Shown here piece after piece: positions 7,129-35,286 of a stretch of 64,000 bases of DNA. Position 1 is the stretch's first letter. Every line of letters begins with the position of its first letter. The notes under the pieces are model-generated. The model had not been told where the DNA came from and searched no databases. It saw only the letters and a program-made list of their open reading frames with translations. Origin of the DNA: Opitutus sp. ER46 (GTDB lineage Bacteria > Verrucomicrobiota > Verrucomicrobiia > Opitutales > Opitutaceae); contig NZ_QAYX01000025.1 of the NCBI RefSeq assembly GCF_003054705.1, forward strand, positions 744,001 to 808,000, in the 5' to 3' direction. Position numbers and translations under genes: made by a program.

Positions 7129-7145
7129 GGCGGCTCGAAGCCGCC
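7129..7145 (+). terminator. Hairpin after the CHASE kinase gene, weak terminator candidate
   Basis: A perfect 7-bp stem (GGCGGCT/AGCCGCC) with a 3-nt loop sits 49 bp after the kinase stop codon and is followed by GAAAATT rather than a clear U tract. It could be a weak intrinsic or factor-assisted terminator. A TTTTT run is present further on, at 7246-7250. The rest of the 7081-7347 gap shows no convincing gene. Confidence 0.3.
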
Positions 7146-7347
7146 GAAAATTGCCTATGGCGGGCCCGGAGCCGGCTCCGTTCGGCGTCATGGGAAATCG
7201 GATGCGGCTAGTTTGGTGGCGCGGCCCGCTACGCAAAGTGGCGGCGTTTTTCTAGGATGATCCCGGCTTACGAAGGGCGGGCGTAGGCCGGTCGGCACCC
7301 CTCCGGGGCGGCTGGCGCAAAACCCGTCTGGTCCGGCTCCCCTCGTC

Positions 7348-19961: not shown

Positions 19962-19982
19962 GAGGGCTCCGATGAGAAAGGG

Positions 19983-20444
19983 TTAGCGGGTGGCGAGGGC
20001 GGGAGCGGCCCCGGCGCCGGCGGGCGCGAGGACGGCGGCGATATCGAGCAGCAGCACGAGCCGATGCGGGAGGTTGGCGACGGCGTGCACGTAGTTACCG
20101 TTGCCCGCGAGCAACGTATCTCCGACGGGACGGATCACTTCGGGAGGGAGGACGTGAAACTCGCGGGCGGCGTCGACGATCAGCGCCACGGTACGGTTCT
20201 CGTGGCGGAGAAAGAGGAGGCGGTTCCGGGGGGTACGATCGGCACGAGGAAGCCCGAAGCAGGCGCGGAGGTTGAGGGCGGGAATGACCTGGCCCCGTGA
20301 GAACACCACGCCCTCGAGCGCGCCGGTGCTGTTGGGCACCGCGGTGATGTGCTCGAGCATCTCGATGTGGAGGACATCGGCGCTGCGGACACCGTAGGTA
20401 GTGTCGGCCAGTTCGAAGAGGATGAAGCTCTCGGCGGAACTCAT
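19983..20444 (-). CDS. cheW: CheW-like coupling protein
   Basis: 153-residue CheW domain (FILFELADTTYGVRSADVLHIEML, VVFSRGQVIPALNLRACFGLP, VALIVDAAREFHVL). CheW couples receptors to CheA in the array. The ATG at 20444 overlaps the cheA stop (ATGA). It is followed by the soluble receptor gene. The C-terminal 15 residues are Ala/Pro-rich and probably disordered. Confidence 0.92.
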   Translation of the reverse strand: MSSAESFILFELADTTYGVRSADVLHIEMLEHITAVPNSTGALEGVVFSRGQVIPALNLRACFGLPRADRTPRNRLLFLRHENRTVALIVDAAREFHVLPPEVIRPVGDTLLAGNGNYVHAVANLPHRLVLLLDIAAVLAPAGAGAAPALATR

Positions 20445-22405
20445 GACGCGAAGGAGGGCGCGGCGGACGGACGGGCGCAGCGGGCCGTGGCGGCCAGTTC
20501 GTGGGGATCGAGGATGAGGACGGGTCGGCCGTCGCCCAACTCGGTGGCGCCCGAGATTCCGGGCACCTGGATCAGGGGATCCTGCATTGCGCGCACGACC
20601 ACCTCGCGGCGCCCTAGCACGCGGTCCACCACGAGGCCGATGCGGCCGTGGTCGGTGTGCAGCACGAGGGTTGGCGCGCTGGCGTGCTCGCCGCGCGGCA
20701 GGCCAAAGACCTGCCGCAACCGCAGCAGCGGCAGCACATCGTCAGCATGGGGCACGACCTCGAACCGGTTGACGAAACGGATCTGCTCGGAGGCGAGGGC
20801 GATCACCTCATGCACGGCGTCCTGCGGGACGGCGCAGGTGTGATCGCCGGCCGTGACGACAAACGTCTCGGCGATCGACAGCGTGAGGGGCAGCCGCAGC
20901 GAGAACTGCGTGCCGCCGGCGGGCGACGTGGTGAGCGCGAGGTTGCCCCCGAGCTCGCGGACCGTGCTCTGCACGACCGCCATGCCGACGCCGCGGCCGG
21001 CGGCGCGATCGGCTTCATCGCGGGTGGAAAAGCCGGGCTGGCAAAGCAGGCCCAGCAGCGTGTGGGCATCAAGCGGCTCGGGAACGACCAGCCCCGCCGC
21101 CGCGGCGCGCGCGGCCACGCGCGCGGTGTCGATCCCGCGGCCGTCATCCCGCACGCGGATGAGAACCGAGTGGCTGGCCGCCTCCGCACTGAGCGTGATG
21201 GTGCCCGTCTCGGGCTTGCCGACGGCGCGGCGTTCGGCGGGAGATTCGAGGCCGTGCGTCACCGCATTGCGGACAAGATGGAGAAGCGGCTCCTTGAGGC
21301 GCTCGACCAGGAATTTGTCGATCTCGGTGTGCTGGCCTTCGATCGCGAGCTGGGCGGTCTTCCCGGAGTCGCGGGCCAGGTCGCGCACGACGAACGGGAG
21401 GCGCGTGAAGATCTCGGCGATCGGCACGAGCCGCACGCGCGTGAGCGCGTCCCGCAATTCGCGCAGCGAACGGGCCAGGGCAAGATTCACCTCCTGCAGC
21501 GGCGGGCGATTGCCGGGCAGGCGGCCAATCCGCTCTTCGAGCCGGGAACGATGGATCACCATCTCCCCGGTGATCCGCATCAGTTCATCGAGGCGGCTGA
21601 GGTCGACGCGCACGAGGTGCGACGGAGCGACGAAGAGGCTGGCTGAAGTCGGCGCGGGCGGCGGCGCCGGCGCGCTGGCGACCGCTTCAGTCGGCGCCGG
21701 CGAGACGGTGACACCGTCGGCCAGCCAGATGTCAGGGGCTCCCGGATTCGTGTGGGCCGCGACGGTAAAATCGAAGCGCATGGCGCCGCCGGGCTGGATG
21801 ACGGGGACGGCGTTCGTGATCTCGCCGAGCGCGGTGAGGCGTGCGCGCACCTGGCTGACGTTCACGCCGCGGCGGTCGAGCTCGGGGGAGGGGGCGAAGC
21901 TGAACCGCCAATGGGCGGGCGATGCGGGTGGCGGGGATGAATGGGAAACCTCAGGCGCCGGAACCGCGGGCACGTGGGCCGCGACGTCCGGCACGGGCGT
22001 CGCGGCGGTATTGTTCAGCCGGGTCAGAGCGTCGTCGATCGGCGGCAGCGACTGCTGGAGGCGATGGGCCGCCACGAGTTGCTCAAGCCGCTGCGCGGCA
22101 AACGCGAGTGGCTCGGTCGCGGTGGCCGGGAGGGGCGCGGGGTGGCGGACGTGTTGCCGCAGCCGTTCCTCGATGGCATGGGCGAGCTGCTCGGCGGGGC
22201 GGAGCCCGGCGAGCGCGGCATTGCCCTTGAGCGAGTGCATGCTGCGAAAGCAGCTCTCGAGCGCGGTGGCGTCGGCCCGGCCCGCCGCCGCGGCGTGTTC
22301 GAGGCCGGTGAGCTGCAGCCGCACGTTGCTGAGCTGCTCGTCACACTCCGCATAGAAGTCGTCGAGCAGTTCGGCGCGCAGGGACTCGTTGGCATCCGAC
22401 GTCAT
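20441..22405 (-). CDS. cheA: Chemotaxis histidine kinase CheA
   Basis: 654 residues. P1/HPt domain (about 5-125) with the phosphorylated His57 in SMHSLKGNAALAG; a Pro/Ala-rich linker containing a short possible P2-like segment (about 195-255); P3 dimerisation (LDELMRITGEMVIHRSRLEE); P4 ATPase with HLVRNAVTHGLE (N box), DDGRGID (G1) and GRGVGMAVV (G2); and a C-terminal CheW-like P5 domain (about 520-640). It autophosphorylates in trans and passes phosphate to CheY and CheB. The start at ATG 22405 is fixed by the ATGA overlap with the upstream regulator gene; the frame is open upstream but lies inside that gene. Confidence 0.95.
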   Translation of the reverse strand: MTSDANESLRAELLDDFYAECDEQLSNVRLQLTGLEHAAAAGRADATALESCFRSMHSLKGNAALAGLRPAEQLAHAIEERLRQHVRHPAPLPATATEPLAFAAQRLEQLVAAHRLQQSLPPIDDALTRLNNTAATPVPDVAAHVPAVPAPEVSHSSPPPASPAHWRFSFAPSPELDRRGVNVSQVRARLTALGEITNAVPVIQPGGAMRFDFTVAAHTNPGAPDIWLADGVTVSPAPTEAVASAPAPPPAPTSASLFVAPSHLVRVDLSRLDELMRITGEMVIHRSRLEERIGRLPGNRPPLQEVNLALARSLRELRDALTRVRLVPIAEIFTRLPFVVRDLARDSGKTAQLAIEGQHTEIDKFLVERLKEPLLHLVRNAVTHGLESPAERRAVGKPETGTITLSAEAASHSVLIRVRDDGRGIDTARVAARAAAAGLVVPEPLDAHTLLGLLCQPGFSTRDEADRAAGRGVGMAVVQSTVRELGGNLALTTSPAGGTQFSLRLPLTLSIAETFVVTAGDHTCAVPQDAVHEVIALASEQIRFVNRFEVVPHADDVLPLLRLRQVFGLPRGEHASAPTLVLHTDHGRIGLVVDRVLGRREVVVRAMQDPLIQVPGISGATELGDGRPVLILDPHELAATARCARPSAAPSFAS

Positions 22406-22866
22406 GACGCGGCCGCGGGATGGGGCGCCAGGGGGACAGCCGGCATCGGTAGGCGGGCGGGGGGCTGCGCGAGGAGCTCGAGCCGCTGGTGGAGCTGGGC
22501 CGGGGAGATCGGCTTCACGCAATAGTCCGCGGCGCCGCAGGCGCGCGCACGCAGCAAGTCGCTGCCGTGCTCGGAACCGCTGAGCACGATCACTTCGAGT
22601 GGGGGCTCGAAATGCTGGGCCTGGATCCAGCCGAGAATCTCAAAGCCGCTGAACACCGGCAGCTTCAGGTCGAGAAACAGCAGATCGGGACGCGGCTGTT
22701 CCCCCGCCTGCATGGCGCGCAGGTAGGTCATGGCGAGCCCGCCGTCGGCGAGGTGGACGACCTCGCAGTCGCGCGTGCATTTGCCGACGGCCCACCGGAA
22801 GAAGAACGCATCGTCTTCCGAATCCTCGACGAGCACGACGAGAGGCCGGCGCTGGGAAGTGGACAT
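22402..22866 (-). CDS. Rcp1-like single-domain response regulator, first gene of che operon
   Basis: 154-residue receiver of the Rcp1/phytochrome-associated type: VVLVEDSEDDAFFFRWA (acidic pocket about 14-19), phospho-Asp66 in LLFLDLKLPVFSG, conserved KPIS near the end. Long-reach loops and the EDSEDD motif are typical of Rcp1-like regulators that pair with PAS/GAF-type kinases, so the kinase encoded at the far end of the operon is a reasonable partner. ATG 22866 is the first gene of the operon; its stop overlaps cheA. Confidence 0.9.
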   Translation of the reverse strand: MSTSQRRPLVVLVEDSEDDAFFFRWAVGKCTRDCEVVHLADGGLAMTYLRAMQAGEQPRPDLLFLDLKLPVFSGFEILGWIQAQHFEPPLEVIVLSGSEHGSDLLRARACGAADYCVKPISPAQLHQRLELLAQPPARLPMPAVPLAPHPAAAS

Positions 22867-23181
22867 GTGGGCGGAGATTGGGCGGGGCGCGAGTACCGCC
22901 GGATTTGGCGGGCGGGTTTGTCGCCGCCGCGATGCGGAGAGTCGAGGGCTTAAGGCTCCCATTTCCTTATGGGAAAATGTCTTTGGGGAAGCGCCGCGGG
23001 CGCACGTAGGGGAAATCCCGGTACATGATCGGGCGGCTTTGGAGGCGGTTTCCCAGGTGGTGACGCGGGTCGACGAAACTGACACCGCCGCGTCCGAAGC
23101 GAGGGAAGGTGGGTCTTCGCCCCGTTTCGAGAACCCTGTGCCGCGGGCGATGTCTTTGCGTCGTGTCGGCCAAGTAGGCCT
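22867..23181. other. Intergenic region upstream of the che operon
   Basis: The gap between the divergent che operon and the small gene at 23284 is 417 bp and lower in GC than the surroundings toward its right end. Apart from the sigma28-like match, the 6-bp hairpin at 22957-22974 and the sigma70-like promoter that follows at 23182, no gene, repeat or RNA is recognisable. Confidence 0.5.
23026..23052 (-). promoter_or_regulatory. Weak sigma28-like promoter candidate for the che operon
   Basis: On the minus strand GAAA-N15-CCCGATCA resembles the flagellar sigma28 consensus TAAA-N15-GCCGATAA (3 of 4 and 6 of 8 positions). It lies about 160 bp upstream of the first chemotaxis gene in the right orientation. 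Such matches occur by chance in GC-rich DNA, so this is tentative. A 6-bp hairpin TCCCAT/ATGGGA (22957-22974) lies between it and the gene. Confidence 0.22.
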
Positions 23182-23544: not shown

Positions 23545-24906
23545 CTACTTCTCCTGGGCCGCTTGCCGTGCGTTGAAGTCCACCAGGGCGGGGCCGAGGG
23601 CTTTTGCCGCTCCCTCAAAATCCTTCTCGAGCCATTTGGCGGCCAGCATGCGCTGCAGATTGGCCGCGCGGACCACGTCGGTGATCTGGGCGGCGAGCTG
23701 AAACGCGTCACGCGCGTCGGGGCGTAGCTCCATCACGGATTGGGCGAGCGCCTCGTGGGCGTTGTCGAAATCCTCGTGGCTGCCCTGACTTTTCAACCAG
23801 TCGATGGCCTCCTGGAGCCGGTCGGAGCGCGTCAAGCCCTGGACGATCTCAGCGGCCGCCGTGCTCCGGGTTTCGCCGAGCGGCAGAGTCGTTGCCCAAG
23901 CCAACGCGGACGGGGTGTCGTCCGCCAGCTTGCGCTTCGCCACGGCTTCGATCAGCGCCGTGCTCGCATACGGGTTCTGGAGCGTCGCGATGAGATGGTA
24001 ACCGGCCTGGTGATCGTCGTCCGAACGGCTGCGGAGCAGCTCGGCGGCGAGATCCCGGCGCAGCCCTTCCTGCCAGTCGCGCCGTGGGCATTGGTTGATG
24101 AGTGTGAGCGCGGCGTCCAACCCGGTGTCGCGGCGAACCGTGTCGACCATCCGGTTGAGGCGGTCGATGAGTGACTCGGAGTCGCGCAGGTCCGGAGTCA
24201 AACAAAGCTCCATCGTCAATTGGACCGCCCGGTCGCGATCCTTGTCGAACAACACGTCGAGCATGCCCGAAATGAGCCCCGGAGCGGCGTCCTCGACGCT
24301 CTTCTGATAGGCCAACGCACAATCGAGCGCCTCCTGGGGAGCGCCGTGCAGAATCCATCCCTTGAACAGGTTCTCTGCGGCCGTGGTGCTGCGGGCTGCG
24401 GGTGGAAGCTGCGCATAAGCCTGGAAGGCTGCCAGCCCGTCGATTTGGGTCCACCGCGCCAGCGCGATGCTCAGCAAGGGCTCGCGATGATCGCTCGTTC
24501 CGGCGGCGTCGACCACGTCCGCCAGCTCCGCCTCGGAGGCTTGCGCCATCCACAGCACGGTCGTGAACACCGTGTCGATGCGCTTCTCTGAATCCCGACG
24601 GGCAAAGGCCGCCACCACGTCCTGCGGGCTGAGTCGCGGTGCCGCGGACTCTGCCATGGGCGCTGGATTTCCCACCGAACCTCTCACGGACGCCATCGCG
24701 ATGGCCTGCCGCGCGACGGCTCGCGGCGCGCGGACCTCGCTCGTGTGCCCACTGCTCGATCCCGAAAGGCGGCCGCCCCAAAACGCGCCCAGGCCGCTCA
24801 GGGCCCAAAGCGCCACGATGAAACCGGTGCCGCCGGGACGCGCGGCGGAAGAAGGGCGCCGGGTGGAAGCCGGCACGCGGTGGCAGGAAGAAACGAGGTC
24901 TGGCAT
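23545..24906 (-). CDS. Membrane-anchored helical-repeat protein
   Basis: 453 residues. A basic N-terminal segment is followed by one transmembrane helix (about 28-45; GFIVALWALSGLGAFWGG). The rest is almost entirely alpha-helical, with repeats of a Pentatricopeptide/TPR-like kind in which WA or WL recurs at spaced positions (for example SALAWATTLPLGETRSTAA and AIDWLKSQ). Verrucomicrobiota carry many such membrane-anchored helical-repeat proteins of unknown role. It lies 142 bp downstream of the Hsp70-fusion gene in the same direction and may be the last member of that operon. The ATG at 24906 is chosen because it starts just before the basic/transmembrane segment; the upstream extension is Arg/Pro-rich and overlaps the Hsp70 gene. 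Confidence 0.75.
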   Translation of the reverse strand: MPDLVSSCHRVPASTRRPSSAARPGGTGFIVALWALSGLGAFWGGRLSGSSSGHTSEVRAPRAVARQAIAMASVRGSVGNPAPMAESAAPRLSPQDVVAAFARRDSEKRIDTVFTTVLWMAQASEAELADVVDAAGTSDHREPLLSIALARWTQIDGLAAFQAYAQLPPAARSTTAAENLFKGWILHGAPQEALDCALAYQKSVEDAAPGLISGMLDVLFDKDRDRAVQLTMELCLTPDLRDSESLIDRLNRMVDTVRRDTGLDAALTLINQCPRRDWQEGLRRDLAAELLRSRSDDDHQAGYHLIATLQNPYASTALIEAVAKRKLADDTPSALAWATTLPLGETRSTAAAEIVQGLTRSDRLQEAIDWLKSQGSHEDFDNAHEALAQSVMELRPDARDAFQLAAQITDVVRAANLQRMLAAKWLEKDFEGAAKALGPALVDFNARQAAQEK

Positions 24907-25048
24907 GGCAGATGGGCGCGGCGCTCGGTTGCCGCAGCCTGGCTGCCCGGCGAACACGCGCACCTTGGCGCCTACTCTCCTTGAGGGCCGCTGCCCCGAC
25001 CTTCTTACACGGCCGTAGAACCAAAAGACCGCCTGCGCATCCCGCACA

Positions 25049-28000
25049 TCAACTTCCTTCCGCGGGCAGTCCGAGGGCTTGGCGCAGCGACGTCTGGGCA
25101 GTCTTCTCCTCGGCAAACGGCTGCCCCGAGGATCTCCACAGGACTCGCAGGCACCACAGCTTGTCCGCCTGGTGCAGCGCATCGTCTTTCTGCTCCTGCG
25201 CGCGGGCGATGACGGCCTCGCCCACGGCCTTTTGAAACGTTTCGGCCACGACCGTGAGGTCCATCGCCAGGAGGCTGTCCGTCAGCTTCCTCCGCACCGT
25301 GGCTTTGTCCATGTACGCGGGGTCCTGGACCGGCACGCCCCTGGCCCGGTTGCCCTTGATCTCGCGGCCACGTTCGGATGTCGCGGCGCGTCCACTTAAC
25401 GGGGACGCGAGCGTCTTGCCGCCGCGCGAGAACTCGATGCGCACTGGGAGCCGGTGAGTCAGGGCATGGTCGATGATCGTGTAGGTTTCCTTGGCGTAGG
25501 TCGGCACCTCGACCCAGGCCGGGGTTCGGCGCAGCGTGTCCGCCGCCTCCTCCATGTCCCGCTGCGCCCGCTGGATGTTTTGCACGGCTGCCATGGCCCC
25601 GTAGGGATCGCCGTACGCCATCCGCGCGGAACTCATCGCCATGAACGTGGCGTGCTCGTACGCCGCGTCGTACATTCGTTTCGCTCTCTCGTAGTCGGGA
25701 TTTGTCTCGGTGTGGGTGCCGGTCTTGTACCGGACACTGTCCTCGGAGGTCTTCTTCTCATCCTCCGTTTCCACCGCATCGAGGGCGATCACCGTGGTCA
25801 GCAGGGGAGCGCGGCCACCCGACGCGCAGGACAACCAGCCTGCATGGGGACCCGCCAGGGTGCGGATCAGTTGTTCGCGACACTGGGTCGCTCCGGGGAG
25901 CATGGCTTCGTCGACCACCTTGGGTATCGCCCAGTCGACGCTGGCATCGAGTTGGCGGGTGGCATCCCGCACGAGCTCATCGCGGAAACCGGTGTCGAGG
26001 GTCGCGCCGCTGGCGGCCGCGAGATCGGCGAGATAGAGCGCTGCTCCCGGCAGCTGGCGGCGGGCAAGCTCGCGACTCCAGTCGGCATAGGCGCGGCTCA
26101 GAAATGCGGTTGCGTCGGCCGGGTTTCGGAACTGGGTCCGCGCCGCTTCCACAAAGGGAATCGCGCGCCGCATCCCGCGGGCGTCCGTCGTCTGCACGTC
26201 GATGCCCAGCGCCGAGAGATGCTCCAGGAACCGCTCCAGCGAGGTTTCTCCGATCAGCATTCGGCCGGTGACTTTGTAGGCCTGGCCGGTCAGGGCGGCA
26301 AAGCGATCAATGACGTCCTGCGCCTTGCCGGCATGCCGCTCGCGCAAGGCCGAGCCGAGCAATTCGGCAAACGCGAGGCTCATCCGCCCTGCGAGCTGCG
26401 TCCGTGCCTCCGCAACTTCCTCCGTCAATGGCCCAAGCCGGGACGCCTGTTCGAGGCGCCTTTTGGCCTGTTCGAAGTCGCCCTGGTCGGCCGCTTTCCC
26501 GGCCGTCTTTAGCTCATGGCGAACGCGTGCCTCCTGCAGCTTGACCAAGCGCGCCGCGTTTTTGGGCGACAGGGCGCCGGGGAGCTCCGCGGTGCCGATG
26601 AACTCGGACAGTACCTTGGGCAGCGCCGGCAAGGGAAGATCCTTGATGGCCGCGATGGCATCGTGCGCTCCGGCCGAGTCACCCTGGGCGATCTTCTCCT
26701 CCGCCTCGGTCAGGAGTCCGGCGACTTTGTTGTCCCAGTTCACTCGGGACTCGATGCTGCGCTCGACCACCCGCGTCTGGGAAATCTCCCATGCGTACCT
26801 CGACCAGCGGAGATCCTGGCTCGCGGCATCCCATTCGCCCGCCTGGGCGTGTTTTCGGGCGTCCTCGATGTAGCCGAGGGCGTGTAAGTAGTCGCGATAC
26901 AGCAACCCCGCGATGACAAGTGCCGTGCATCCCACCAGCGTCGCTCCGAAGAGGATCAGGCGTCGCCGGATCATGCGGCTGGCGGTGGCGAGGAGTTCCC
27001 GTGGCGCCGCGGCGTTGGGACACGCCTTGAGCGCCCGCAGGGCCGAATGCTTGAGCGTGCGCCAGCGCCGGGCGGTCCGGGCCTTTTGCCCATCGGCGAT
27101 GACGGTGTTGAGGGTGTTCAGTTTGACCCGCCATGCCGCCACGTCCTCCGACGCGTAGTTGACGGACTCTGCGTCGCACAAGGCGGACTCCACGGCCGCA
27201 AGGTCGCCCATGTCCCACGCCGACTGCATGCGCTCGAGTTGGCAATGAACCTGCGCCGCCACCGCGCTCAACGCCTCATCGATGGCCGCCTTCAGGGCCT
27301 GGTGCCGGCGCTGCAGATCGTCGGCGGGGGCGGAAAACTCCGGCAGCCAGCTGCCGGCCTGCTCCGCCAGGGAGGCGGTCACCGCCGCCATCGTTTCGGC
27401 GGCTTGTTGGGGCCGGCCGTGCGCGTGTTCTTCGCTGGCGGTCGTAAAGATGCTCTCGAGTGACTGGAGCTTGAGCTCCTGGGCCTGGCGGACCTGCTCG
27501 CGCTCGATGGCTGCGGCCAGGGAGGCGCAGAGCGGGTCGTCGGAGTTCAGCTTGCGGTACTCATCGAGCTGGCGCTGGGCCGCATCGACGTCGTGGGCTT
27601 GAAGGGCCGCCTCGATGCTCTGCCGGAGCGCCAGCAGCGCCTCCGCGTCGGCAATCCAGTTCTTGCGGTTGAGCGCGAGGAGCAGCGGGCGCAGGTCCTC
27701 GGCGGAGGAATTGATGAGACCAGCCTCGATGAACTGGACGGCGGCTTTCACGCCGGCGACGCGGTCGTTGAGTTTTACCGCGAGCTCCGCGCGCAGCCGC
27801 CACAGCTCAAGATGATCCGGGCAGGAGGATAGCAATACGTCGGCCCGGCTGGCCGCACTGGTAAAATCGTCGCTCGTGCTGCCCGGGGAACGCGCTAGTT
27901 CGCGGATCGTTTCGAACTCAAGCAGGTCGCGGCCCGTCAGAGTGGATTTGTCCGTGCCCTGCGAGGCGCAGTAATGCGCCGCGCCCAGGGAAACCGCCGC

Positions 28001-29050
28001 CAGCGCATTCGCATAGTCGACGAGCGGCAGGGCGGTCTTCGCCTTCAGCATCTGCCGGACGAGAGCGATCTGCGAGGAGCCGCCAATCAGCAGGACCTCC
28101 GCGGGCGTCAGGCCCTCCCGTGCGCAGCGTTCGAGCAGCTCCACGGTCAGCCGCACGGCCTTGGCGCAGAGGTCCTCGATGCATGCGTTGAACAGCTCGC
28201 GGGTGCATTCAAAGCGACGGGGCGTCTGGCCATTTTCGATCAGCACCGCGGCCTTCTCCGCGCGGGAGAGCCGCTCTTTGCACTCAACCAGCGCACGGCG
28301 GTTGCGGCTGTGATATTCGATCGGCAGGGCCGACAGTGGGCCTTCGCCCTGCTGCGCCAGTTGTTCGTCGACCCAGGCAGCCAGGCGCTCATCGATGTCC
28401 ACGCCGCCGAGCCGGGCGTCGCCGGAGTAGAGGCTCGGGTGGGCGAACGCGGCGTCGCCCTTGAGGGTCACGAGTGCGAGATCGAGCGTGCCGCCACCGA
28501 AGTCGAAAACGAGCACCCGATGATCCTCGGCCAGGGGGCGGCCGGCACGCTTCTGCTCGTGCAGGTAGGCATACGCCGCCGCGGCGGGCTCAGGCAGCAG
28601 CGTGATCTCCTTGAAGCCCACGCGGCGGGCCGCCTGTTCGAGCGACTCACACGCGGCCGGGCCGAATGAAACCGGCACGGTGATGACGGCCCGCTCGATC
28701 GTCGCATACGTGGCTTTCGCCTGGCACTGGGCAACGAGGTCCCGCAGGAACGCCGCCGTGAGGTCGACGGGCGTGAAGCTCTCGCCGTCGATCACCCGGT
28801 TGGTGTCGGTGCCGAGCAGGCGTTTGAAGTTATCGACGTAGCGGGAGGGTGCGGACACCGCCTTGTCCTCCGCCTCTTCGCCGATCGCGAAGGCGCCGTT
28901 GCCTTCGCTGTACAGCACCGTGGGGATGTCGTCGCGGCCGGTGCCGAGCCGGATGGGTTCGGGGTGCCCGACGGGGAAGCGTCCCATCCAGCGGGAAACC
29001 AGGGTCTTGGTGGTGCCGAAATCGACGCCGATCTGCGGTGCGTAACTCAT
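25049..29050 (-). CDS. Hsp70-family ATPase fused to helical repeats, a TM helix and a large tail
   Basis: 1333 residues, about twice the size of DnaK. Residues 1-365 form an actin/Hsp70 ATPase domain: IGVDFGTTKTLVSRW (phosphate 1), FDFGGGTLDLAL (phosphate 2), LIGGSSQIALVRQML (adenosine). The canonical beta-sandwich substrate-binding domain is not recognisable. It is replaced by helical repeats rich in LA and EA (about 370-690), one transmembrane helix (about 695-717; LILFGATLVGCTALVIAGLL), and about 600 further residues, mainly helical with a late coiled coil (about 1165-1205). The ATPase would be cytosolic and the tail beyond the membrane. The start at 29050 overlaps the stop of the upstream dynamin-like GTPase (ATGA). 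A GrpE-like gene lies three genes upstream. The client is unknown. Confidence 0.9.
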   Translation of the reverse strand: MSYAPQIGVDFGTTKTLVSRWMGRFPVGHPEPIRLGTGRDDIPTVLYSEGNGAFAIGEEAEDKAVSAPSRYVDNFKRLLGTDTNRVIDGESFTPVDLTAAFLRDLVAQCQAKATYATIERAVITVPVSFGPAACESLEQAARRVGFKEITLLPEPAAAAYAYLHEQKRAGRPLAEDHRVLVFDFGGGTLDLALVTLKGDAAFAHPSLYSGDARLGGVDIDERLAAWVDEQLAQQGEGPLSALPIEYHSRNRRALVECKERLSRAEKAAVLIENGQTPRRFECTRELFNACIEDLCAKAVRLTVELLERCAREGLTPAEVLLIGGSSQIALVRQMLKAKTALPLVDYANALAAVSLGAAHYCASQGTDKSTLTGRDLLEFETIRELARSPGSTSDDFTSAASRADVLLSSCPDHLELWRLRAELAVKLNDRVAGVKAAVQFIEAGLINSSAEDLRPLLLALNRKNWIADAEALLALRQSIEAALQAHDVDAAQRQLDEYRKLNSDDPLCASLAAAIEREQVRQAQELKLQSLESIFTTASEEHAHGRPQQAAETMAAVTASLAEQAGSWLPEFSAPADDLQRRHQALKAAIDEALSAVAAQVHCQLERMQSAWDMGDLAAVESALCDAESVNYASEDVAAWRVKLNTLNTVIADGQKARTARRWRTLKHSALRALKACPNAAAPRELLATASRMIRRRLILFGATLVGCTALVIAGLLYRDYLHALGYIEDARKHAQAGEWDAASQDLRWSRYAWEISQTRVVERSIESRVNWDNKVAGLLTEAEEKIAQGDSAGAHDAIAAIKDLPLPALPKVLSEFIGTAELPGALSPKNAARLVKLQEARVRHELKTAGKAADQGDFEQAKRRLEQASRLGPLTEEVAEARTQLAGRMSLAFAELLGSALRERHAGKAQDVIDRFAALTGQAYKVTGRMLIGETSLERFLEHLSALGIDVQTTDARGMRRAIPFVEAARTQFRNPADATAFLSRAYADWSRELARRQLPGAALYLADLAAASGATLDTGFRDELVRDATRQLDASVDWAIPKVVDEAMLPGATQCREQLIRTLAGPHAGWLSCASGGRAPLLTTVIALDAVETEDEKKTSEDSVRYKTGTHTETNPDYERAKRMYDAAYEHATFMAMSSARMAYGDPYGAMAAVQNIQRAQRDMEEAADTLRRTPAWVEVPTYAKETYTIIDHALTHRLPVRIEFSRGGKTLASPLSGRAATSERGREIKGNRARGVPVQDPAYMDKATVRRKLTDSLLAMDLTVVAETFQKAVGEAVIARAQEQKDDALHQADKLWCLRVLWRSSGQPFAEEKTAQTSLRQALGLPAEGS

Positions 29051-30663
29051 GATCTTGCGAGTAGCCGATGATAAATTTCCTCGAGACGTGCGGTGATGTG
29101 CTCCAGGCCGGGTTGAAGCGCGCGGGCGCAGGTGTGGCTCTTGCCCCGGAACGCGTCGATCCACCGTCCCAGCTCCGGCAGCGGGGTCGTGTCCCAGATG
29201 CCGTGCGAGTCGGGCTCCGCCATCATGCACGCGGCGCAGGCGATGCAGTGTTCGTCCGGCTTGAGGCCGTGGGATGGGCCCTGCAGCCAGTCGAGCGTGC
29301 GCAAGTCGAGGTGCAGGCCTTCGACCTGCGCGGACCACGCGAGGCGACGGCGGTCAAACCCGAGCGCGAGACGGTTGCAGCGCTCGATTTCCGCGGTGAG
29401 GTCCCGCACGACGCCGTCGATCCATTGGCGCACGGGCGCCGGGGCGAAGGCGCCGAGGCAGCCTTGGGCCTGCGTGGCCGCGGCAAGCTGCTGGCGCAAC
29501 GTGGCCACGTGGCGGTTCAGGGCGAGCGCCGCGGGCAGGAGTTCCTTGCTCGCGAGCACCAGTAACTGGAAGAGCTTCAGCAGCTCCGCCCGCCGGAAGA
29601 AGCGGCGTTCGATCAGCGCGGTCAGGCGCTCAATCCCCGAAAGCTGGCGCGCCAGCCGGCGGGCGTCGGCTCCCGAGGCCGGCGTCTCCCGGGTGAGTCG
29701 CTTCGCGAGCAGCACGAAGCTCACCCAGGGCAGCGCAGGGTAGAGGTCCAGAATTGCCCGGCGGGCCGGCTCGCGCTCCCAGCGGTCCCGCGTCTTGAGG
29801 CAACGTTCCAGCGCGACGGCCTCGGTGCCGGCCAGCACGGCCAGCAGTCGCTCCCAAAACGCGTCCGGAGCTTCGGCGGCCGCCAGCGCCAGCGGTGCGC
29901 TGACCGCCATGGTTTCGGCCACGGCGCCGTCGAGTTGCGCGTGAAGCTGGGCGGCCTTGCGCTCGGCCTCGTCGAAGGGATCCGCACTGTCCAGGCCGTC
30001 CCATTTGTGGACGACGCAGACGCTGTTGTAGGCGTCCGCTCCCGGGATGCGGCTCTGCCCGAGCTGCTGGAGCGTGGCCCGATCCGATTCCCGCCCGATG
30101 GTGGGCACGACGTAGATGAAGGCGTCAGCCTTTTCGTTTTCCGCCAGCGAGGCCCGGATGGCCTCGGGATCGAGGAACTGCCGGGCGGTCTCCTCGTGGG
30201 CGTCCTCCGCGCTGCCGGTGCCCGGCGTATCCACGATGCGGAACTTCCGCAGGGCCTCCACCGCCGCGAAGAATTCCAGGCGCGAAACCTGCCGCACGCG
30301 CTCGACGACGTCGGGGGACTTGCCCACCCATTCGCTGATCCGCGACCGGGGCATCGGCTCGGACCGGCCGTCCTTCCAGTGGACGACGAAGTGCTGGAGC
30401 TGGTCCGTCGCGCCGTGCTGGATGACGTTGATCGTGGCGGTGGATTCCTCCGTGCCGCACACGGCGACAGTCTGGCCAACCAGCGCGTTCAAGAGGGTGG
30501 ACTTACCCGCCTTCATCCGGCCCGCGATCGCCACGGTGAAGGGACTGTGCACGCGTTCGGCGAGCCGGGTGAGGGCGCGACTGTGGGCACGCACGCATTC
30601 GATCTGCTCGAGATCGGACGCGCTCTGCCGGAGGAACTCGTGGAAGTCCTGGCGGGTGATCAC
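29047..30663 (-). CDS. Dynamin-like GTPase with CxxCxxC motif
   Basis: 538 residues. GTPase motifs: G1 GRMKAGKST (48-56), G3 DTPGTGS (about 142-148), G4 HKWD (about 218-221), with long helical stalk regions after about residue 250, as in bacterial dynamin-like proteins. Near residues 471-478 there is HCIACAAC, a CxxCxxC cluster that could bind zinc or iron-sulfur; I know of no such feature in standard dynamins. It starts with GTG at 30663, overlapping the stop of the other GTPase gene (GTGA), and its own stop overlaps the Hsp70 gene (ATGA). Tight coupling suggests that the three proteins act together, probably at the membrane. Confidence 0.87.
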   Translation of the reverse strand: MITRQDFHEFLRQSASDLEQIECVRAHSRALTRLAERVHSPFTVAIAGRMKAGKSTLLNALVGQTVAVCGTEESTATINVIQHGATDQLQHFVVHWKDGRSEPMPRSRISEWVGKSPDVVERVRQVSRLEFFAAVEALRKFRIVDTPGTGSAEDAHEETARQFLDPEAIRASLAENEKADAFIYVVPTIGRESDRATLQQLGQSRIPGADAYNSVCVVHKWDGLDSADPFDEAERKAAQLHAQLDGAVAETMAVSAPLALAAAEAPDAFWERLLAVLAGTEAVALERCLKTRDRWEREPARRAILDLYPALPWVSFVLLAKRLTRETPASGADARRLARQLSGIERLTALIERRFFRRAELLKLFQLLVLASKELLPAALALNRHVATLRQQLAAATQAQGCLGAFAPAPVRQWIDGVVRDLTAEIERCNRLALGFDRRRLAWSAQVEGLHLDLRTLDWLQGPSHGLKPDEHCIACAACMMAEPDSHGIWDTTPLPELGRWIDAFRGKSHTCARALQPGLEHITARLEEIYHRLLARS

Positions 30664-32624
30664 GACTGGGGTGCGTTCAGGGCCGCGGTGCGGAGCTGCA
30701 GTTCCTGCCTCAGTCGCGCGAGCGTTGTCTCAATGGCCTTGTTCCTCCCGCGTTCCTCGCCGAGTTGCGCCTCGGTCTGGCGATGACGGGCCGCCAGCTC
30801 CTTCACGCGGCGGTCGAGCCGTTCCTTGATGTCGGCCACCGCGCTGCGGAGGGTCGCGGTTGCCGCGGACTCCGCCGCCACGGCCGCCTTGGAGAGTTCC
30901 GCCGAGGCCGCCAGTTGCGCGCTGCCCAGCAGTTGGTTGATCGCCCCCATGATCTCGCGCTTGGCCGACTCCGCCTGCTGCTTCCGGCGGTGTTCGAGCG
31001 TGAGCGCGCTGCCCCACAGGCCCGCGATGGCCACGCCGAGCGAGCTGCCCAGGATGGTGCCGACGACGGGGACCACCGATCCGATCAGGCCGCCCGCCAT
31101 GCTCGCCATCGTCATGGCGGCCATCCCGCCAAAGAATCCCATCTTGGCCTTTTCGAAGACCTGCCGGTCCTCGGCCTTCTGCGCGAGAGCCGCCAGCGCG
31201 GTTTGGCCGGTGTCGCTGGCCTCGGCGGCGTGTTCGTCGTGCGGATCGAGCTTCAGCGCAATCTGCGCGCCGGCCTTGTCCGCCAGGGCGCCGACCAGGC
31301 GCGTGACTCCTTCATGGAGCCGGCGGGTGGCCAGGACCAGCACCTGCGATGCCTCCGCGCGCGCTTCCTCGGCGAGCGGATTGACCATCGCGTACATGGC
31401 CTGGGCATCGGTGGCCTTGGCGAGCTGGTGTTCGATGGCCTCGGCAATATCGCCGCCGGGTTTGAACTTCTGCGCCAGCGAGGTGTTGAGGTCGATCTTC
31501 AGCCCGTTCAGTGAATCGGCAAACTCGCGCAGCAACCCTGGTTGCCTCTCGGTTTCCCACGTCCGGATGGCGGCCTGCGCCGCCTCGAGCTCCCGTTGGA
31601 TGGCATCGCGCTTCTCCTTGGTGTCGGCTTCGGTCACCCGCCGCTTATCGGCGGCCTCGGTCTCGAGCAGGGTGAGGCGTTCACGGGCGCGACTAAGGGC
31701 GGTGGTGCAGAGATTGATCTCCTTTTGGCGGATGAGCCGCGCCTGGAACTCCTGCAGCAGCGCCGGGAAGCCGCTGTCCGCCAGGTCCTCGCGCGCGCCT
31801 TCCGGATCCGTGCCGGCGGCCTGGTCCGCGTCGGTCTTGAGCCGCGAGCTGAGGCAGAAGTAGCGCAGCCCCGCCCGGGGAAATCCGGCGTGTTCGAGAA
31901 TCGCCAGGTTGTTGGCCATGCGCTGCTGCGCCGCCTGCCGTCCGACCTCGGCCTTGGTCTGGATGAAGACGAGGTTGCCCGTGATCTTGCGGAGCTCGGC
32001 GAGAAACGAGAGCTCCTCACTGCCGAGCGGCGACTCGACGCTGTCGGTGACGAAGAAGACGGCGTCCGCGTCGGGGGCGTGGCGATACGTGATCTCGCGG
32101 TGCTTGGCGTAGAGGCCACCGATGCCCGGGGTGTCGACGATCACCAGTCCGTCCTGCAACACCCGGGCGGGCGCCTCGACCGCGATGTGGCCGACCTGCT
32201 TCGCGTTGCCGGGGTTGCCCGCTTCCGTGCCGTACGCGGGGAGCTCGGCCGGCGAGATCTCCCGGCTCGGAATGCCTTCGATCTCCCAGCAGACGGTGTA
32301 GCGCACCTTCGGGCCGTAGCTGATTTTGAAGAGGGTAGAGGTCGCGACGTCGGAGTGGACGGGCACGAGGCCCGGCAGGCCGCAGAGTGCATTGATGAAC
32401 GAGGACTTTCCCTTTTTGACCTCACCCATCACGACGAGGCGGAAGATGCCCCGCCGCACGCGATCGATGGTGCCGGTGAGCATCGCGTCGGAGGGACGCT
32501 CAAAGAGCTTGGTTTCCACGAGGGCCATCCGCTCCAGCAGGGTGATTACGCTCTGGCGATCCGTGATCACCGTGGGCTGCGCCGGGGAACCGGGCGTGGG
32601 CGTGGCGGGCAAGACTGGGTTCAT
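30660..32624 (-). CDS. Dynamin-like GTPase with hydrophobic hairpin
   Basis: 654 residues. G1 GEVKKGKSS (67-75) within FRLVVMGEVKKGKSSFINAL, G3 DTPGIGG (about 164-170), G4 TKAE (about 222-225). After a helical stalk come two adjacent hydrophobic Gly/Ala-rich segments (about 495-540; FFGGMAAMTMASMAGGLIG and PVVGTILGSSLGVAIAGL), the type of membrane-inserting hairpin found in bacterial dynamin-like proteins, then a long C-terminal coiled coil (about 550-640). The ATG at 32624 follows the GrpE-like stop by 6 bp; the stop overlaps the next GTPase gene (GTGA). The pair probably forms a heteromeric membrane-remodelling or tethering GTPase, by analogy with paired bacterial dynamin-like proteins. Confidence 0.9.
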   Translation of the reverse strand: MNPVLPATPTPGSPAQPTVITDRQSVITLLERMALVETKLFERPSDAMLTGTIDRVRRGIFRLVVMGEVKKGKSSFINALCGLPGLVPVHSDVATSTLFKISYGPKVRYTVCWEIEGIPSREISPAELPAYGTEAGNPGNAKQVGHIAVEAPARVLQDGLVIVDTPGIGGLYAKHREITYRHAPDADAVFFVTDSVESPLGSEELSFLAELRKITGNLVFIQTKAEVGRQAAQQRMANNLAILEHAGFPRAGLRYFCLSSRLKTDADQAAGTDPEGAREDLADSGFPALLQEFQARLIRQKEINLCTTALSRARERLTLLETEAADKRRVTEADTKEKRDAIQRELEAAQAAIRTWETERQPGLLREFADSLNGLKIDLNTSLAQKFKPGGDIAEAIEHQLAKATDAQAMYAMVNPLAEEARAEASQVLVLATRRLHEGVTRLVGALADKAGAQIALKLDPHDEHAAEASDTGQTALAALAQKAEDRQVFEKAKMGFFGGMAAMTMASMAGGLIGSVVPVVGTILGSSLGVAIAGLWGSALTLEHRRKQQAESAKREIMGAINQLLGSAQLAASAELSKAAVAAESAATATLRSAVADIKERLDRRVKELAARHRQTEAQLGEERGRNKAIETTLARLRQELQLRTAALNAPQS

Positions 32625-32630
32625 GAGCGG

Positions 32631-33188
32631 TTAAGGGGATTGCGGGCGGCCCGGGACGGGCCGCGCTGGAGGCGGCTGCGAAATGACGACTTCCTGCTTC
32701 CGGCAGACTCGGCCGAGGAGGGTGAAACCGGTGGAGCCCTTGCGCACGATCTGCGGACCCGCCTGCCGCGGATCACGGGCGGGCTCGACGCCGATCGGCT
32801 TGTGGCGTTCGGCGTCCAATTGATCACTGTCGATCAGCGTGGCTCCCTGCGCCTCGATGGTCTCGATCAGCGCGGTGCGAACCAGCAGGAGCTCGGCGCG
32901 TTGGGCGGGCTGCGTGGCGCGCGCGCTCATGCCCGCCAGCAGGTCGATCGTGTCCACGATCCGGCCGATGAGCCTGGCCTTGCTGTCATCGCTGGCACGC
33001 GACGCGGACGCCGAGGCCTGCGCCCCCGCCCGGGTTGCCGCGTTGCTGGACGCGGGGCGGGGCGCCGCCGCGGGTGGGGCGGGGACCACGGGAGCGTTGG
33101 GCGCGATCTTGCGGGCAAACCAGATGCGCGCCGCCTGAAGCAGGCGCTGCGAGCGCGCGATCAGATCCGAGAACCGGTGCAAACTCAT
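32631..33188 (-). CDS. GrpE-like nucleotide exchange factor, degenerate
   Basis: 185 residues. An N-terminal helix and Pro/Ala linker are followed by a helical segment SKARLIGRIVDTIDLLAGMS and, at about 130-172, a stretch with the GrpE C-terminal beta-domain pattern (GVEPARDPRQAG..IVRKGSTGF.LLGRVCRKQEVVIS), where normal GrpE has a short wing with bulky hydrophobic residues and a final VxVS. The match is weak but the order and the operon context (Hsp70 and two dynamin-like GTPases) fit a dedicated exchange factor for the Hsp70 protein encoded downstream. Without that context I would have called it hypothetical. ATG 33188; 39-bp gap to the peptidase gene before it. Confidence 0.6.
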   Translation of the reverse strand: MSLHRFSDLIARSQRLLQAARIWFARKIAPNAPVVPAPPAAAPRPASSNAATRAGAQASASASRASDDSKARLIGRIVDTIDLLAGMSARATQPAQRAELLLVRTALIETIEAQGATLIDSDQLDAERHKPIGVEPARDPRQAGPQIVRKGSTGFTLLGRVCRKQEVVISQPPPARPVPGRPQSP

Positions 33189-33227
33189 CGGCAGGCGACG
33201 TCACCCTTTGCGGCGGACGCGGGCAAC

Positions 33228-34682
33228 TCAGCTCAAGGCTCCTGGGTCTTGTCCGGCGTCGAGATCGGACGCGTCGGGAGTGGAAGGCGGCTCGACCGGA
33301 TCGAGGTGGAAGAAGTCGTGCAGCGGATCCGCCACGCCGGGATCGGACTGGGCCAGGGAGATCAGGCGGCGGGAAAGCGTGGCATCGAAATCGTTCAGCG
33401 GCTGGTTCGCGAAGGCGTCGAAGTCCATCGGCTGGCCGAACTGGAGCTGCAGGTCGTGATAGTGGTGGGCCGCCTGGCTGAAGATCAGCTCGAGCCGGCC
33501 GAGGGCCATGACGTCGGTGTCGGGCGCGAGGGCGAAGTCGTGCAGCTCGGCAAACGTCGCGTAGGGCAGTTCGCCGACGGTCGCGAGGTGGCCGGTGGCA
33601 TAGTTGAAGTTCTCCATCCCCGGGGCGAAGACGGGTGCGGGTTCCACCGTCGACACCATGAAGCAGTTGGAGTCTTTCCACGCGTCGATGAACTGCTCCA
33701 TCGGGTATTCGGCGGCGACCTGGCCGGTGCCTGGATCGGTGAGGATGACTTTGACGTTCTTGGGGTCGGTCGTGTCGATGCTCGAGACGATCAACGCGTG
33801 ATCCGGCTGCTCAAGGCCGATGAAATCCATCACCCGCTCGCCGATGCCCCGGTCCCACAGCTCGCCGGCATCGACGCCGATGATCACCTTGTGCCCCTGG
33901 GCGAGCTCGTTGGAGAGATTAAAAATGTTGGCGTTTTCGAAGCGCTGGACCTGGACGCCGTGCGCCTCCAGCAGGTTGCCGACGGCCTCGGGCGAGGTGC
34001 CGTGGCCCGGCTGGTACCAGCCGCGCTGGGTGGCCTCGGCGATGAGCTGTTCCTGGGAGATATGGACGCCGAAGTCGCGCAGGACGATCTCCTGGCTGCG
34101 AATGGCGCAGGTGTCGGAGTAGCCCTGATAGATGTCTTGCGGGGTCGCTCCGGCTGGAACTTCGCCGAATTGCTTGGCGGGATCCGATTGGGTCATGGCG
34201 TCGTGAAAGGATGCGGTGGCGGAATCGCCGGCGAAGCCAAGGGCGTCGTCGGTTGTGTGCTCACCTGATCCCGAGGCCGCATTCGCGTCATTTCTTACCG
34301 ACGGGTCGTGTTTTTCTCCGTCGGCGCCCGCGAACATGGGCCCGGCGATTGGCGCGGCGGGCCCGGCGAGCCGGGACACGAGCGCGCCGAGGCCGCCGAG
34401 GGTGGTGAGGCCCGGCAGCGGGAAGGAGCTGACGGTGGAGTTCTTCGCGTCGGTTGCCCGCGCGAGTTGGCGCAGGCGGCGGAGCGCGCGGCGCGTTTCT
34501 TCACCCGAAACCGGCGGAAGCGTGCCCTCCACCTCCCGCAGGTTCGTGGCGGCGAGCGTGGCGAACGCCTCCTGGCAGGCCGGACAGTGGCTGGCGTGCG
34601 CCGACCAGCGGCGCAGCTCGTCGTCGGTGGCGCGGCCCTCGACGATCCGCAGCAGCGCCAGGTCGTTGGGACAATCAGGCAT
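33228..34682 (-). CDS. Zinc-finger anti-sigma-like domain fused to C39/papain-like peptidase
   Basis: 484 residues. The N terminus has an anti-sigma zinc-finger pattern His29-x3-Cys33-x2-Cys36 (SAHASHCPAC), normal for ZAS-type anti-sigma factors. A weakly hydrophobic Gly/Leu/Ala-rich stretch (about 88-118) may be membrane-associated. Residues about 180-330 form a C39-like cysteine peptidase: Gln186 and Cys192 (QGYSDTCAIRSQ), GHGTSPEAVGNLLEAHG, His295 (QPDHALIV) and Asp316 (LTDPGTGQ) make a plausible catalytic triad. The C-terminal 150 residues are acidic and unassigned. The start overlaps the end of the sigma gene by 8 bp. Fusing an anti-sigma finger to a protease suggests that cleavage controls release of the sigma factor, but this is inferred; no cleavage site is visible. 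Confidence 0.8.
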   Translation of the reverse strand: MPDCPNDLALLRIVEGRATDDELRRWSAHASHCPACQEAFATLAATNLREVEGTLPPVSGEETRRALRRLRQLARATDAKNSTVSSFPLPGLTTLGGLGALVSRLAGPAAPIAGPMFAGADGEKHDPSVRNDANAASGSGEHTTDDALGFAGDSATASFHDAMTQSDPAKQFGEVPAGATPQDIYQGYSDTCAIRSQEIVLRDFGVHISQEQLIAEATQRGWYQPGHGTSPEAVGNLLEAHGVQVQRFENANIFNLSNELAQGHKVIIGVDAGELWDRGIGERVMDFIGLEQPDHALIVSSIDTTDPKNVKVILTDPGTGQVAAEYPMEQFIDAWKDSNCFMVSTVEPAPVFAPGMENFNYATGHLATVGELPYATFAELHDFALAPDTDVMALGRLELIFSQAAHHYHDLQLQFGQPMDFDAFANQPLNDFDATLSRRLISLAQSDPGVADPLHDFFHLDPVEPPSTPDASDLDAGQDPGALS

Positions 34683-35286
34683 GGACCCCCTCCTTTTCCA
34701 GCAGTGATCGCAGGTCGGCGATGGCTCGACTGCAGCGCGTATAGGCGTTGGCCGGCGAGATGCCCAGCAGCTCCGCCACCTCCGCGACGCTGCGTTCCTC
34801 GACCTTGTAGAGGAAGAGGATGTCGCGGTGTTGCAGGTTCTCCAGTTGCATGATGGCTTGCCGGATCTCGCTGGCTTGGCGGTGCCGTTCGGGGAGGGCG
34901 TCGATGAGACGATCCACCTCCTCCTGGTCTGGAGGACGGGGTGCGCGCATTTCTGACGGCTGGCGGATGATTCTTTTGGCGAGCAGCCGGGAGGCGATCA
35001 ACGTGACGTACGACGCCAGCCGGCAGGCCTGACCGGCGCGGTTCTCACCTTGAAACAGCCGCAGCGCGTGCCAGTCGCGCCGGCTGAGCTGGAGGAAGAC
35101 CTCGCTGACCAGCTCCTCGAACTCCCAGCCCGCCGCCCGATACCGGACGGCCGCCAGGTATTTCAGACGCGCCCCGCATTGGTCGCACAGCAGCCACGCG
35201 ATCGCGGCGGCATCGCCGGAAACGATCCGTTCCACCAACTGTGCATCGGACAGCCGAGGGTACTCCACAGATGACACTGGGTTCAT
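34675..35286 (-). CDS. ECF-like sigma factor
   Basis: 203 residues with sigma region 2 (about 35-105; EFEELVSEVFLQLSRRDW) and region 4 (about 140-200), ending in a helix-turn-helix RSVAEVAELLGISPANAYTRCSRAI. It would direct RNA polymerase to a small regulon, probably including its own operon. A Cys pair (CDQC) near residues 33-36 may be structural or redox-sensitive. The ATG at 35286 (MNPVSSVEY) is preferred; an alternative start 14 codons upstream adds residues that look non-coding. The gene overlaps the anti-sigma-peptidase gene (8 bp), the usual arrangement of a sigma with its regulator. It is the first gene of the operon. Confidence 0.87.
   Translation of the reverse strand: MNPVSSVEYPRLSDAQLVERIVSGDAAAIAWLLCDQCGARLKYLAAVRYRAAGWEFEELVSEVFLQLSRRDWHALRLFQGENRAGQACRLASYVTLIASRLLAKRIIRQPSEMRAPRPPDQEEVDRLIDALPERHRQASEIRQAIMQLENLQHRDILFLYKVEERSVAEVAELLGISPANAYTRCSRAIADLRSLLEKEGVHA

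Follow-up and report, generated by a model that had tools for sequence, protein, structure and literature searches.

Genes for dynamin-like proteins (DLPs) and for Hsp70-type ATPases have been described in several bacterial systems that resemble parts of the gene row analysed here, a cassette on the minus strand of a 64,000-nucleotide stretch of Opitutus sp. ER46 (contig NZ_QAYX01000025.1, positions 744,001 to 808,000; the whole stretch is called the window below). It encodes a sigma factor, a zinc-finger anti-sigma (ZAS) domain fused to a C39-like cysteine protease, a GrpE-like protein, two DLPs and an Hsp70-like ATPase. As in iniBAC/IniA (PMC6715688) and Cj-DLP1/2 (PMC6104087), two unlike DLPs are encoded side by side, but the accessible parts of those papers describe no Hsp70, protease, GrpE or sigma gene alongside; general scans of the window proteins, which used no IniB model or sequence, found no IniB-like family. 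The cyanobacterial chaperone-clade DLPs (PMC5827413) likewise have a DnaK-domain gene downstream of the DLP gene, whereas section 7 of that paper, in its accessible part, names no protease, GrpE, sigma/ZAS genes or swapped tails; in the DLP1 tree, moreover, the window protein falls among Verrucomicrobiota. Dynamins/Eleos (LeoA/LeoBC) defence is DLP-based as well, according to the excerpted text of PMC11811056. Hsp70-like modules outside folding occur in CoCoNuT type IV restriction, where, in the accessible text of PMC11090510, an Hsp70 nucleotide-binding/substrate-binding domain module (NBD/SBD) with degenerate ATPase motifs accompanies McrB/McrC homologues; the window cassette, in contrast, has conserved ATPase residues, no recognisable SBD and no McrBC among the genes scanned.

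A further likeness is to the predicted GTPase-centric conflict systems that are defined by double GTPases (DO-GTPases; Kaur et al. 2020, PMC7159879). As far as the excerpted text goes, about 14% of GAP1-N2 neighbourhoods carry HSP70 and GrpE, and the systems often have paired GTPases, GrpE, variable fused or linked modules, and HSP70s that partly lack a peptide-binding domain. The HSP70 and GrpE theme and the variable components recur in our cassette, and DO-GTPases of that kind sit inside it in L048, L068 and the plasmid pANA01 (loci found in this work are numbered with L). Unlike in those systems, the window GTPases belong to the dynamin family, the constant partner is the C39 protease, and no GAP1 or FNIII was recognised; the word 'dynamin' is absent from the main text of PMC7159879. 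No published system with this gene set was found in the open full-text literature, subscription papers lying mostly outside the search, and the original prediction that no such system had been described holds to that extent; PMC5827413, PMC7159879 and PMC6104087, in their accessible parts, are partial forerunners.

Weighing the evidence that follows, we consider the chances evenly balanced that the cassette is inducible and serves in conflict (immunity-like) or in damage sensing, its Hsp70s providing variable sensors and its dynamin pair working on membranes. Its features in the window are as follows.

34675..35286, minus strand: ECF-type sigma-70 factor, 203 amino acids from an ATG; the protein may start earlier, at a TTG at 35328
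33228..34682, minus strand: ZAS anti-sigma domain fused to a C39-like papain-fold cysteine protease, 484 amino acids
34533..34682, minus strand: ZAS zinc-finger anti-sigma part, amino acids 1-50, assigned by motif; helical, block pLDDT (model confidence) 73-89
33633..34175, minus strand: C39-like protease domain, about amino acids 170-350; block pLDDT 72-98 over amino acids 181-350, Foldseek matches
32631..33188, minus strand: GrpE-like nucleotide exchange factor, 185 amino acids, assigned by fold comparison; PF01025 below cut-off
30660..32624, minus strand: DLP1, dynamin-like GTPase, PF00350 at 60.3 bits; weak hydrophobic segment near amino acid 503, stronger in relatives
29047..30663, minus strand: DLP2, dynamin-like GTPase, PF00350 at 59.9 bits; no hydrophobic segment at the DLP1 place
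25049..29050, minus strand: Hsp70-like ATPase with a unique tail, 1333 amino acids; PF00012 matches profile positions 2-373 of 599 only
27956..29050, minus strand: Hsp70 NBD, amino acids 1-365, catalytic positions conserved
25049..27955, minus strand: Hsp70 tail, amino acids 366-1333, no homologue found
26891..26959, minus strand: predicted transmembrane segment in the Hsp70 tail, amino acids 698-720; hydropathy 2.3, RRR on its N side

Coordinates and family matches confirmed the six same-strand genes that had been noticed from the sequence, standing in a tight row in the order sigma, ZAS-C39, GrpE-like, DLP1, DLP2 and Hsp70. The sigma and ZAS-C39 genes overlap by 8 bases, DLP1 and DLP2 by 4, and DLP2 and Hsp70 by 4, and gaps of 39 and 6 bases separate the GrpE-like gene from ZAS-C39 and from DLP1, respectively. 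The open reading frame listed for the Hsp70, which extends to 29338, begins too early, the protein starting with MSYAPQIGVDFGTTKT.

A profile made from 32 DLP1 rows and run on a genome collection gave 62 loci, most of them in metagenome bins, from Verrucomicrobiota, Planctomycetota, Bacteroidota, Pseudomonadota, Lentisphaerota, Kiritimatiellota, Chlorobiota, Actinomycetota and others. Using partner profiles derived from these loci together with the window, and counting an Hsp70 if it lay on the same strand within 10 kb, we found C39 in 54 loci, DLP2 in 52, Hsp70 in 50 and all three in 45. Several of the 17 loci without the full trio end at a contig edge; C39 was absent despite upstream sequence in L036, L039, L044, L046, L069 and L070, and no same-strand partner was found in L044, L069 and L070, L044 having an Hsp70 on the opposite strand. 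In Verrucomicrobiota the genes usually run GrpE-C39-DLP1-DLP2-Hsp70, and in Bacteroidales C39-DLP1-Hsp70-DLP2-GrpE; the window differs from its relatives in that the GrpE-like gene lies between C39 and DLP1. The genes thus form one conserved set, in support of the original prediction, and its own counter-case, a set private to this genome, is contradicted by 62 loci in many phyla. That unrelated neighbours were brought together by chance or by an annotation artefact could be argued from the window GrpE and C39 matches, which score under the Pfam cut-offs, but the neighbourhood recurs in many phyla and is backed by fold support and linkage counts, and we give this explanation practically no weight.

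The DLP1 and C39 profiles were both run over 288 genomes of the window's phylum, its own genome included. DLP1 matched in 41 genomes at E<=0.001, only 7 of these being strong and full-length (E<=1e-130; the next 1e-42), and C39 matched in 11, with 8 at E<=1e-50. In all seven strong-DLP1 genomes, the window's included, C39 adjoins DLP1, and each of the other six has C39, DLP1, DLP2 and Hsp70 in one neighbourhood. Four of them (G146, G153, G183 and G193) are the records of L019, L021, L040 and L042, which had contributed C39 rows to the profile, so that only G277 and G188 are new relative to the 62 loci. The eighth strong C39 (G060), preceded by a GrpE-like gene and truncated where its contig ends, is in a genome in which DLP1 was not matched; the three weaker C39 matches (1e-31, 1e-10 and 1e-10) come from genomes without any DLP1 match. 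From this co-occurrence we conclude that, in the 288-genome sample, the C39 protease is nearly confined to the cassette, and that the cassette is rare in the phylum (7/288). DLP1 was not matched by single-sequence search in any of 26 congeneric genomes; the distribution is sporadic (0/26 in the genus), which we count in favour of a conflict function.

The Hsp70 is the partner in which variation is concentrated. The window protein scored 111.8 bits against PF00012 (cut-off 20.6), a family matched by 41/41 Hsp70s scanned, and in all 24 that were viewed singly the match ended at or before position 379 of 599; DnaK of the same genome, encoded on another contig, matched positions 1-596. We therefore read the cassette Hsp70 as an ATPase domain with no recognisable SBD, a very diverged one being possible. 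With no recognisable SBD we reject a folding role, and the substrate-handling chaperone of the original prediction is not supported. Among 63 Hsp70s compared, the ATPase positions D10 (62), K76 (62), E154 (60), D183 (62), T188 (59) and D190 (59) are kept, which we take to correspond to the catalytic residues of DnaK.

Behind the ATPase domain, tails of many kinds were found: ankyrin repeats in L017, L022, L030 and L040, Sel1 repeats in 9/41 (for example L022 and L040), TPR in L034, DnaJ_C in L014, LGFP in L020, WG in L061, FGE-sulfatase-like domains in 3/41 including L024, and L7/L12 C-terminal domains in 3/41 including L017 and L022. In L035 the tail is a dynamin domain within one 1121-amino-acid frame (4854-8219), a natural fusion of two partners. 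Other tails were unrecognised, that of the window among them: residues 380-1333 found only themselves among 7995 scored candidates in a word-based search of limited sensitivity. Nineteen of the 63 proteins are practically tail-less and 44 have tails of at least 80 amino acids; in the 946 pairs that these 44 form, ATPase domains could be aligned in 940 and tails in 73. Even where ATPase identity was at least 75%, tails aligned over half their length in only 2/13 pairs, 12 of which are copies within one locus (L017 95%, L039 93%, L036 80-86%, L046 79-85%, L022 81%). Tandem copies in L017 and L039 combine near-identical ATPase domains with unrelated tails, DNA identity dropping sharply at the domain boundary (in L017 from mostly 88-99% to 67% or less); it falls more gradually in L036, L022 and L046. 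L013 and L014 are near-identical cassettes (C39 93%, DLP1 88%, DLP2 92% identical), and yet their Hsp70 ATPase domains are 59% identical with unrelated tails, their GrpE proteins being 60% identical. From these tail comparisons we conclude that the Hsp70 gene is the most changeable part of an otherwise stable cassette. In this the cassette resembles an immune receptor system more than it does a usual chaperone.

More tentatively, and with more doubt than confidence, we suggest that the Hsp70 ATPase is the shared engine of a polymorphic receptor family, with tandem copies, homogenised ATPase domains and freely swapped recognition tails, that would signal via the GrpE-like factor and the cysteine protease to a dynamin pair at the membrane. 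If true, bacteria would have a new class of immune-type receptor, in which Hsp70 takes the role played elsewhere by STAND/NLR ATPases. The tails have also to be weighed under protein sorting or biogenesis of membrane compartments, in which Hsp70 and GrpE would load cargo for DLP-made vesicles or inner-membrane folds and the tails would select it. Such a role has been proposed for cyanobacterial DLP-DnaK neighbours (in the accessible part of PMC5827413, section 7), many of the 62 loci come from Planctomycetota and Verrucomicrobiota, and several tails are protein-binding repeats; the lack of a recognisable SBD, the rarity of the cassette within the phylum and the presence of related sets on plasmids, however, make it quite improbable.

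Some further observations touch the Hsp70s. The genome of the window has two adjacent further Hsp70 genes, apart from DnaK, at C20:401853-404447 (open frames of 934 and 649 amino acids). One clear J-domain partner, with an HPD motif, lies directly upstream of the C39 gene in L024 (233-1036); a second match to the J-domain pattern looks like chance. Near the cassette in L064, L060, L066, L056, L057, L065, L058, L038 and L036 there are zinc-ribbon-headed proteins with variable bodies, often several in a row, with an LRR/DUF285 body in L064 and Fib_succ_major in L058; the sequence pattern missed those of L060, L064 and L066, which were found by similarity. They accompany 13/20 loci with a tail-less Hsp70 vs 3/30 with a tailed one (Fisher p 9.7e-5), an association explainable by lineage, since the tree holds only 3 independent pairs (p 0.5).

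Both GTPases exceed the PF00350 cut-off of 27, and they are not alike. The DLP1 profile matched IniA 6j72 (E=1.9e-31, profile positions 50-638 of 640) and, nearly full length, BDLP 2j68 (E=1.6e-29), and by this near full-length similarity DLP1 is predicted to be of the IniA type; the best match of the DLP2 profile, over the GTPase domain, was 5owv (E=1.5e-17), which we take to be the Campylobacter DLP pair. A hydrophobic segment, mostly within residues 465-520, is present in 56/60 DLP1 rows listed and weak (1.6) in the window; no such segment is seen in 39/50 DLP2 rows listed, and in the rest it lies elsewhere than at the DLP1 place. The P-loop and DTPG are kept in both, DLP1 is without a canonical (N/T)KxD (G4) motif, and DLP2 has HKWD. 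An actinobacterial protein scanned singly in Pfam was again a dynamin. Judged by their sequences, the two are an unlike pair of which one family appears built to enter the membrane, in agreement with the pairing of the GTPases expected at the outset. A PADLOC scan, whose library gives no cut-off, returned LeoBC with 65.9 bits for DLP1 and 36.5 for DLP2; the Dynamins/Eleos gene set is presumably smaller than the cassette, without Hsp70 or protease. Two additional DLP1-like genes follow the cassette in L032 (14807-19314), and two DLP-like genes stand at L094 9569-12867 (G031, of the same family as the window), where the other cassette genes were not matched by these profiles.

The main rival is an envelope-stress module: a membrane or cell-wall insult would free the ECF sigma factor, the cassette would be expressed, the DLP pair would repair or reshape the inner membrane, and the membrane-anchored Hsp70 would be a force- or damage-sensing scaffold, as in iniBAC or DynA and not in immunity. 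The best solved relative of DLP1 is indeed IniA, which cuts membranes in vitro and for which a role in preserving the plasma membrane during drug stress has been proposed (PMC6715688, in its accessible part). The window Hsp70 also has the transmembrane helix that the original prediction had noted, as one strong segment at residues ~698-720, but among the Hsp70s of its relatives only a minority are predicted to have one, and membrane repair has no obvious need for swapped tails on near-identical ATPase domains or for double GTPases. On balance we hold envelope stress to be an unlikely though serious explanation, the regulatory genes bearing on it as well.

ECF/ZAS pairs often respond to envelope or redox stress, a point in favour of that rival, and such a pairing is present in the window: the sigma factor exceeds the TIGR02937 cut-off (54.7 vs 42.9 bits; Sigma70_r4_2 38.4 bits) and an H-x3-C-x2-C motif lies in the adjoining gene as C4-x24-H29-x3-C33-x2-C36. 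We predict from these features that the two form an ECF sigma/anti-sigma pair that would bind each other; it should be cytoplasmic, since the ZAS-C39 protein has no predicted transmembrane segment. Besides the window, L043 (Chlorobiota) and L058 (Bacteroidota) have the motif fused to C39; reading by eye showed separate genes for sigma, ZAS protein and C39, one after another, in the planctomycetes L032 and L038. In several Bacteroidota (e.g. L053, L060, L063 and L066) the sigma gene overlaps a C39 gene whose product has an N-terminal extension without the ZAS motif. The sigma/anti-sigma unit first proposed for this locus therefore recurs, with a sigma-like gene in 12/62 loci, a share that also speaks against a general envelope-stress response.

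The protease, at 20.0 bits, stays below the Pfam C39_2 cut-off of 24, which its relative on pANA01 exceeds (26.1 bits). In an alignment of 55 rows (the window, its own genomic copy L006 and 53 relatives) Q186 is kept in 53/55, C192 in 54/55, H295 in 55/55 and D316 in 55/55, the misses being truncated rows. The protein thus has a complete conserved Q, C, H and D, Q being the oxyanion Gln, and is predicted to be a papain-like protease. In its structural model pLDDT is low between the ZAS and protease blocks, and Foldseek with the window protease returned mainly papain-like and C39 peptidases (best E=7.8e-5).

The GrpE-like protein matched PF01025 with 16.5 bits (E=0.0068; cut-off 25.8), a family reached at E<=0.01 by 2/14 and 1/12 of the aligned members of two GrpE-like groups, which match each other with an hhalign probability of 96. 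Its model (pLDDT 85.5) gave GrpE in all of the first 12 Foldseek matches (best E=3.1e-7), with TM-scores of 0.3-0.6 to GrpE structures and a poor overall superposition; the modelled fold resembles that of GrpE. A combined profile, most rows of which come from these loci, found the gene in 33/62.

The link to conflict systems comes from loci in which DO-GTPases stand among the cassette genes. L048 and L068 each have three extra genes inside the cassette, two per locus matching DO-GTPases, of which 3/4 exceed the Pfam cut-off and the fourth has 23.7 bits vs 27; a profile of those four found no DO-GTPase-like gene in any other of the 62 loci. On pANA01 (L098), a plasmid of Anabaena sp. 90 that is non-mobilizable by PLSDB typing, an Hsp70 consisting of the ATPase domain only, two DO-GTPases (one above the cut-off, one below), C39, DLP1 and DLP2 form one row. 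The window GTPases match Dynamin_N, with no PF19975 or PF19993 up to E=0.1, and no GAP1-named match was seen in the window proteins scanned or the candidate genes of L048, L068 and L098, in a library whose GAP1 models were not confirmed. DLP1 matched 36 of 72,556 plasmid records, 25 of them from Rhodococcus or Prescottella. A conjugative Rhodococcus pyridinivorans plasmid has a DLP pair beside two Hsp70 genes, a sigma gene and GrpE on the other strand, and a mobilizable Gordonia plasmid has a DLP pair, then Hsp70, and a sigma gene ~7 kb on; the genes tested in these two stretches included no C39 match. The original interpretation is partly supported; it did not include the swapping of tails, the finding that the protease is the most constant partner, or the connection with double-GTPase conflict systems. 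pANA01 also encodes, beside the DO-GTPases, two proteins (2324-3562 and 5698-7137) that are alike over their first ~150 residues (67-93% per 30 amino acids) and then diverge, one tail having a hydrophobic glycine-rich stretch; their constant head and variable tail are like those of the Hsp70s.

We set out how a conflict or damage-sensing module could work on the basis of what the sequences provide, namely the parts, their conservation, active-site residues, tail swapping and linkage; the succession of steps, the ligand, what the protease cuts and the end result, like all function here, are our proposal. At rest the ZAS domain would hold the sigma factor. The variable Hsp70 tail, in this genome a unique membrane-anchored region of about 970 residues, would bind a ligand, foreign or damaged cell material. 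The dedicated GrpE-like exchange factor would set the pace at which ATP is bound and released, and this ATPase/GrpE cycle would switch the assembly state of the Hsp70 and set the threshold. The switched Hsp70 may then engage the C39-like protease, as switch or executor, to cut a protein of the cassette or of the cell. That ZAS is fused to the protease in the window suggests that sigma release is perhaps coupled to it, in that the protease may also free sigma from the fused ZAS and raise cassette expression; where present, sigma/ZAS would make the cassette inducible. The inner membrane would then be sealed, cut or disrupted by DLP1, from a family with a membrane segment, and DLP2, assembled on it as an unlike pair.

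Several results weigh against this scheme. Sigma-like genes are missing from 50/62 loci, so that the sigma/ZAS switch cannot be general, and the tail-less Hsp70s (19/63) need another sensor. Related tails were retained in L014/L049, a counter-example at 89% and 63%, in L015/L016 (48%) and in one L036 pair. The DLP1 tree runs largely by phylum (16 label changes; minimum 10, shuffled mean 33.1), which implies that transfer has been limited. Over 42 rows the distances of DLP1, DLP2, C39 and the ATPase domain are concordant (Mantel r 0.71-0.93; 0/2000 permutations as high in each of six gene pairs), which we count for the scheme, although plain joint inheritance would predict it too. No defence island was seen among the window flanks scanned, and the GC content of the cassette is like that of its flanks (0.679 vs 0.686), and by this base composition we reject a recent foreign island. 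PADLOC gave only the Leo-type matches to the DLPs and nothing for the other five proteins scanned, and a search of 50,697 phage records with the window C39 protein found nothing at E<=1e-5. The GrpE-like and C39 proteins of the window both lie under Pfam cut-offs, their identities being backed by fold comparison and conservation in relatives. The GTPase-centric conflict systems that the cassette resembles are themselves only predictions in the accessible text of PMC7159879.

Were the conflict or damage-sensing proposal right, bacterial dynamin pairs, whose roles are mostly unknown, would gain defined partners and a testable pathway, the Hsp70 ATPase would be in use as a diversified sensor rather than a chaperone, and paired bacterial dynamins would be joined with predicted GTPase/HSP70 conflict systems, which the papers found treat apart. 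The cassette is in the records of named strains (Aporhodopirellula aestuarii ICT_H3.1, Belnapia mucosa T6, Marseilla massiliensis An824, Xylanibacter rodentium PROD and Anabaena sp. 90), and the proposal is therefore testable now.

A helical-repeat gene begins ~140 bases after the Hsp70 gene and spans 23545 to about 24906. It had been considered a possible seventh member, but it found no match among the open reading frames of 70 loci and was dropped; its protein matched no Pfam family at E<=0.001 and gave 2 weak matches in 38 genomes besides its own. The scanned flanks are otherwise ordinary, with a pectin-degrading enzyme and an acyl-CoA dehydrogenase upstream and chemotaxis genes just downstream of the cassette, where CheR, MCP, CheW, CheA and a response regulator form a cluster at window positions 17149-23085.

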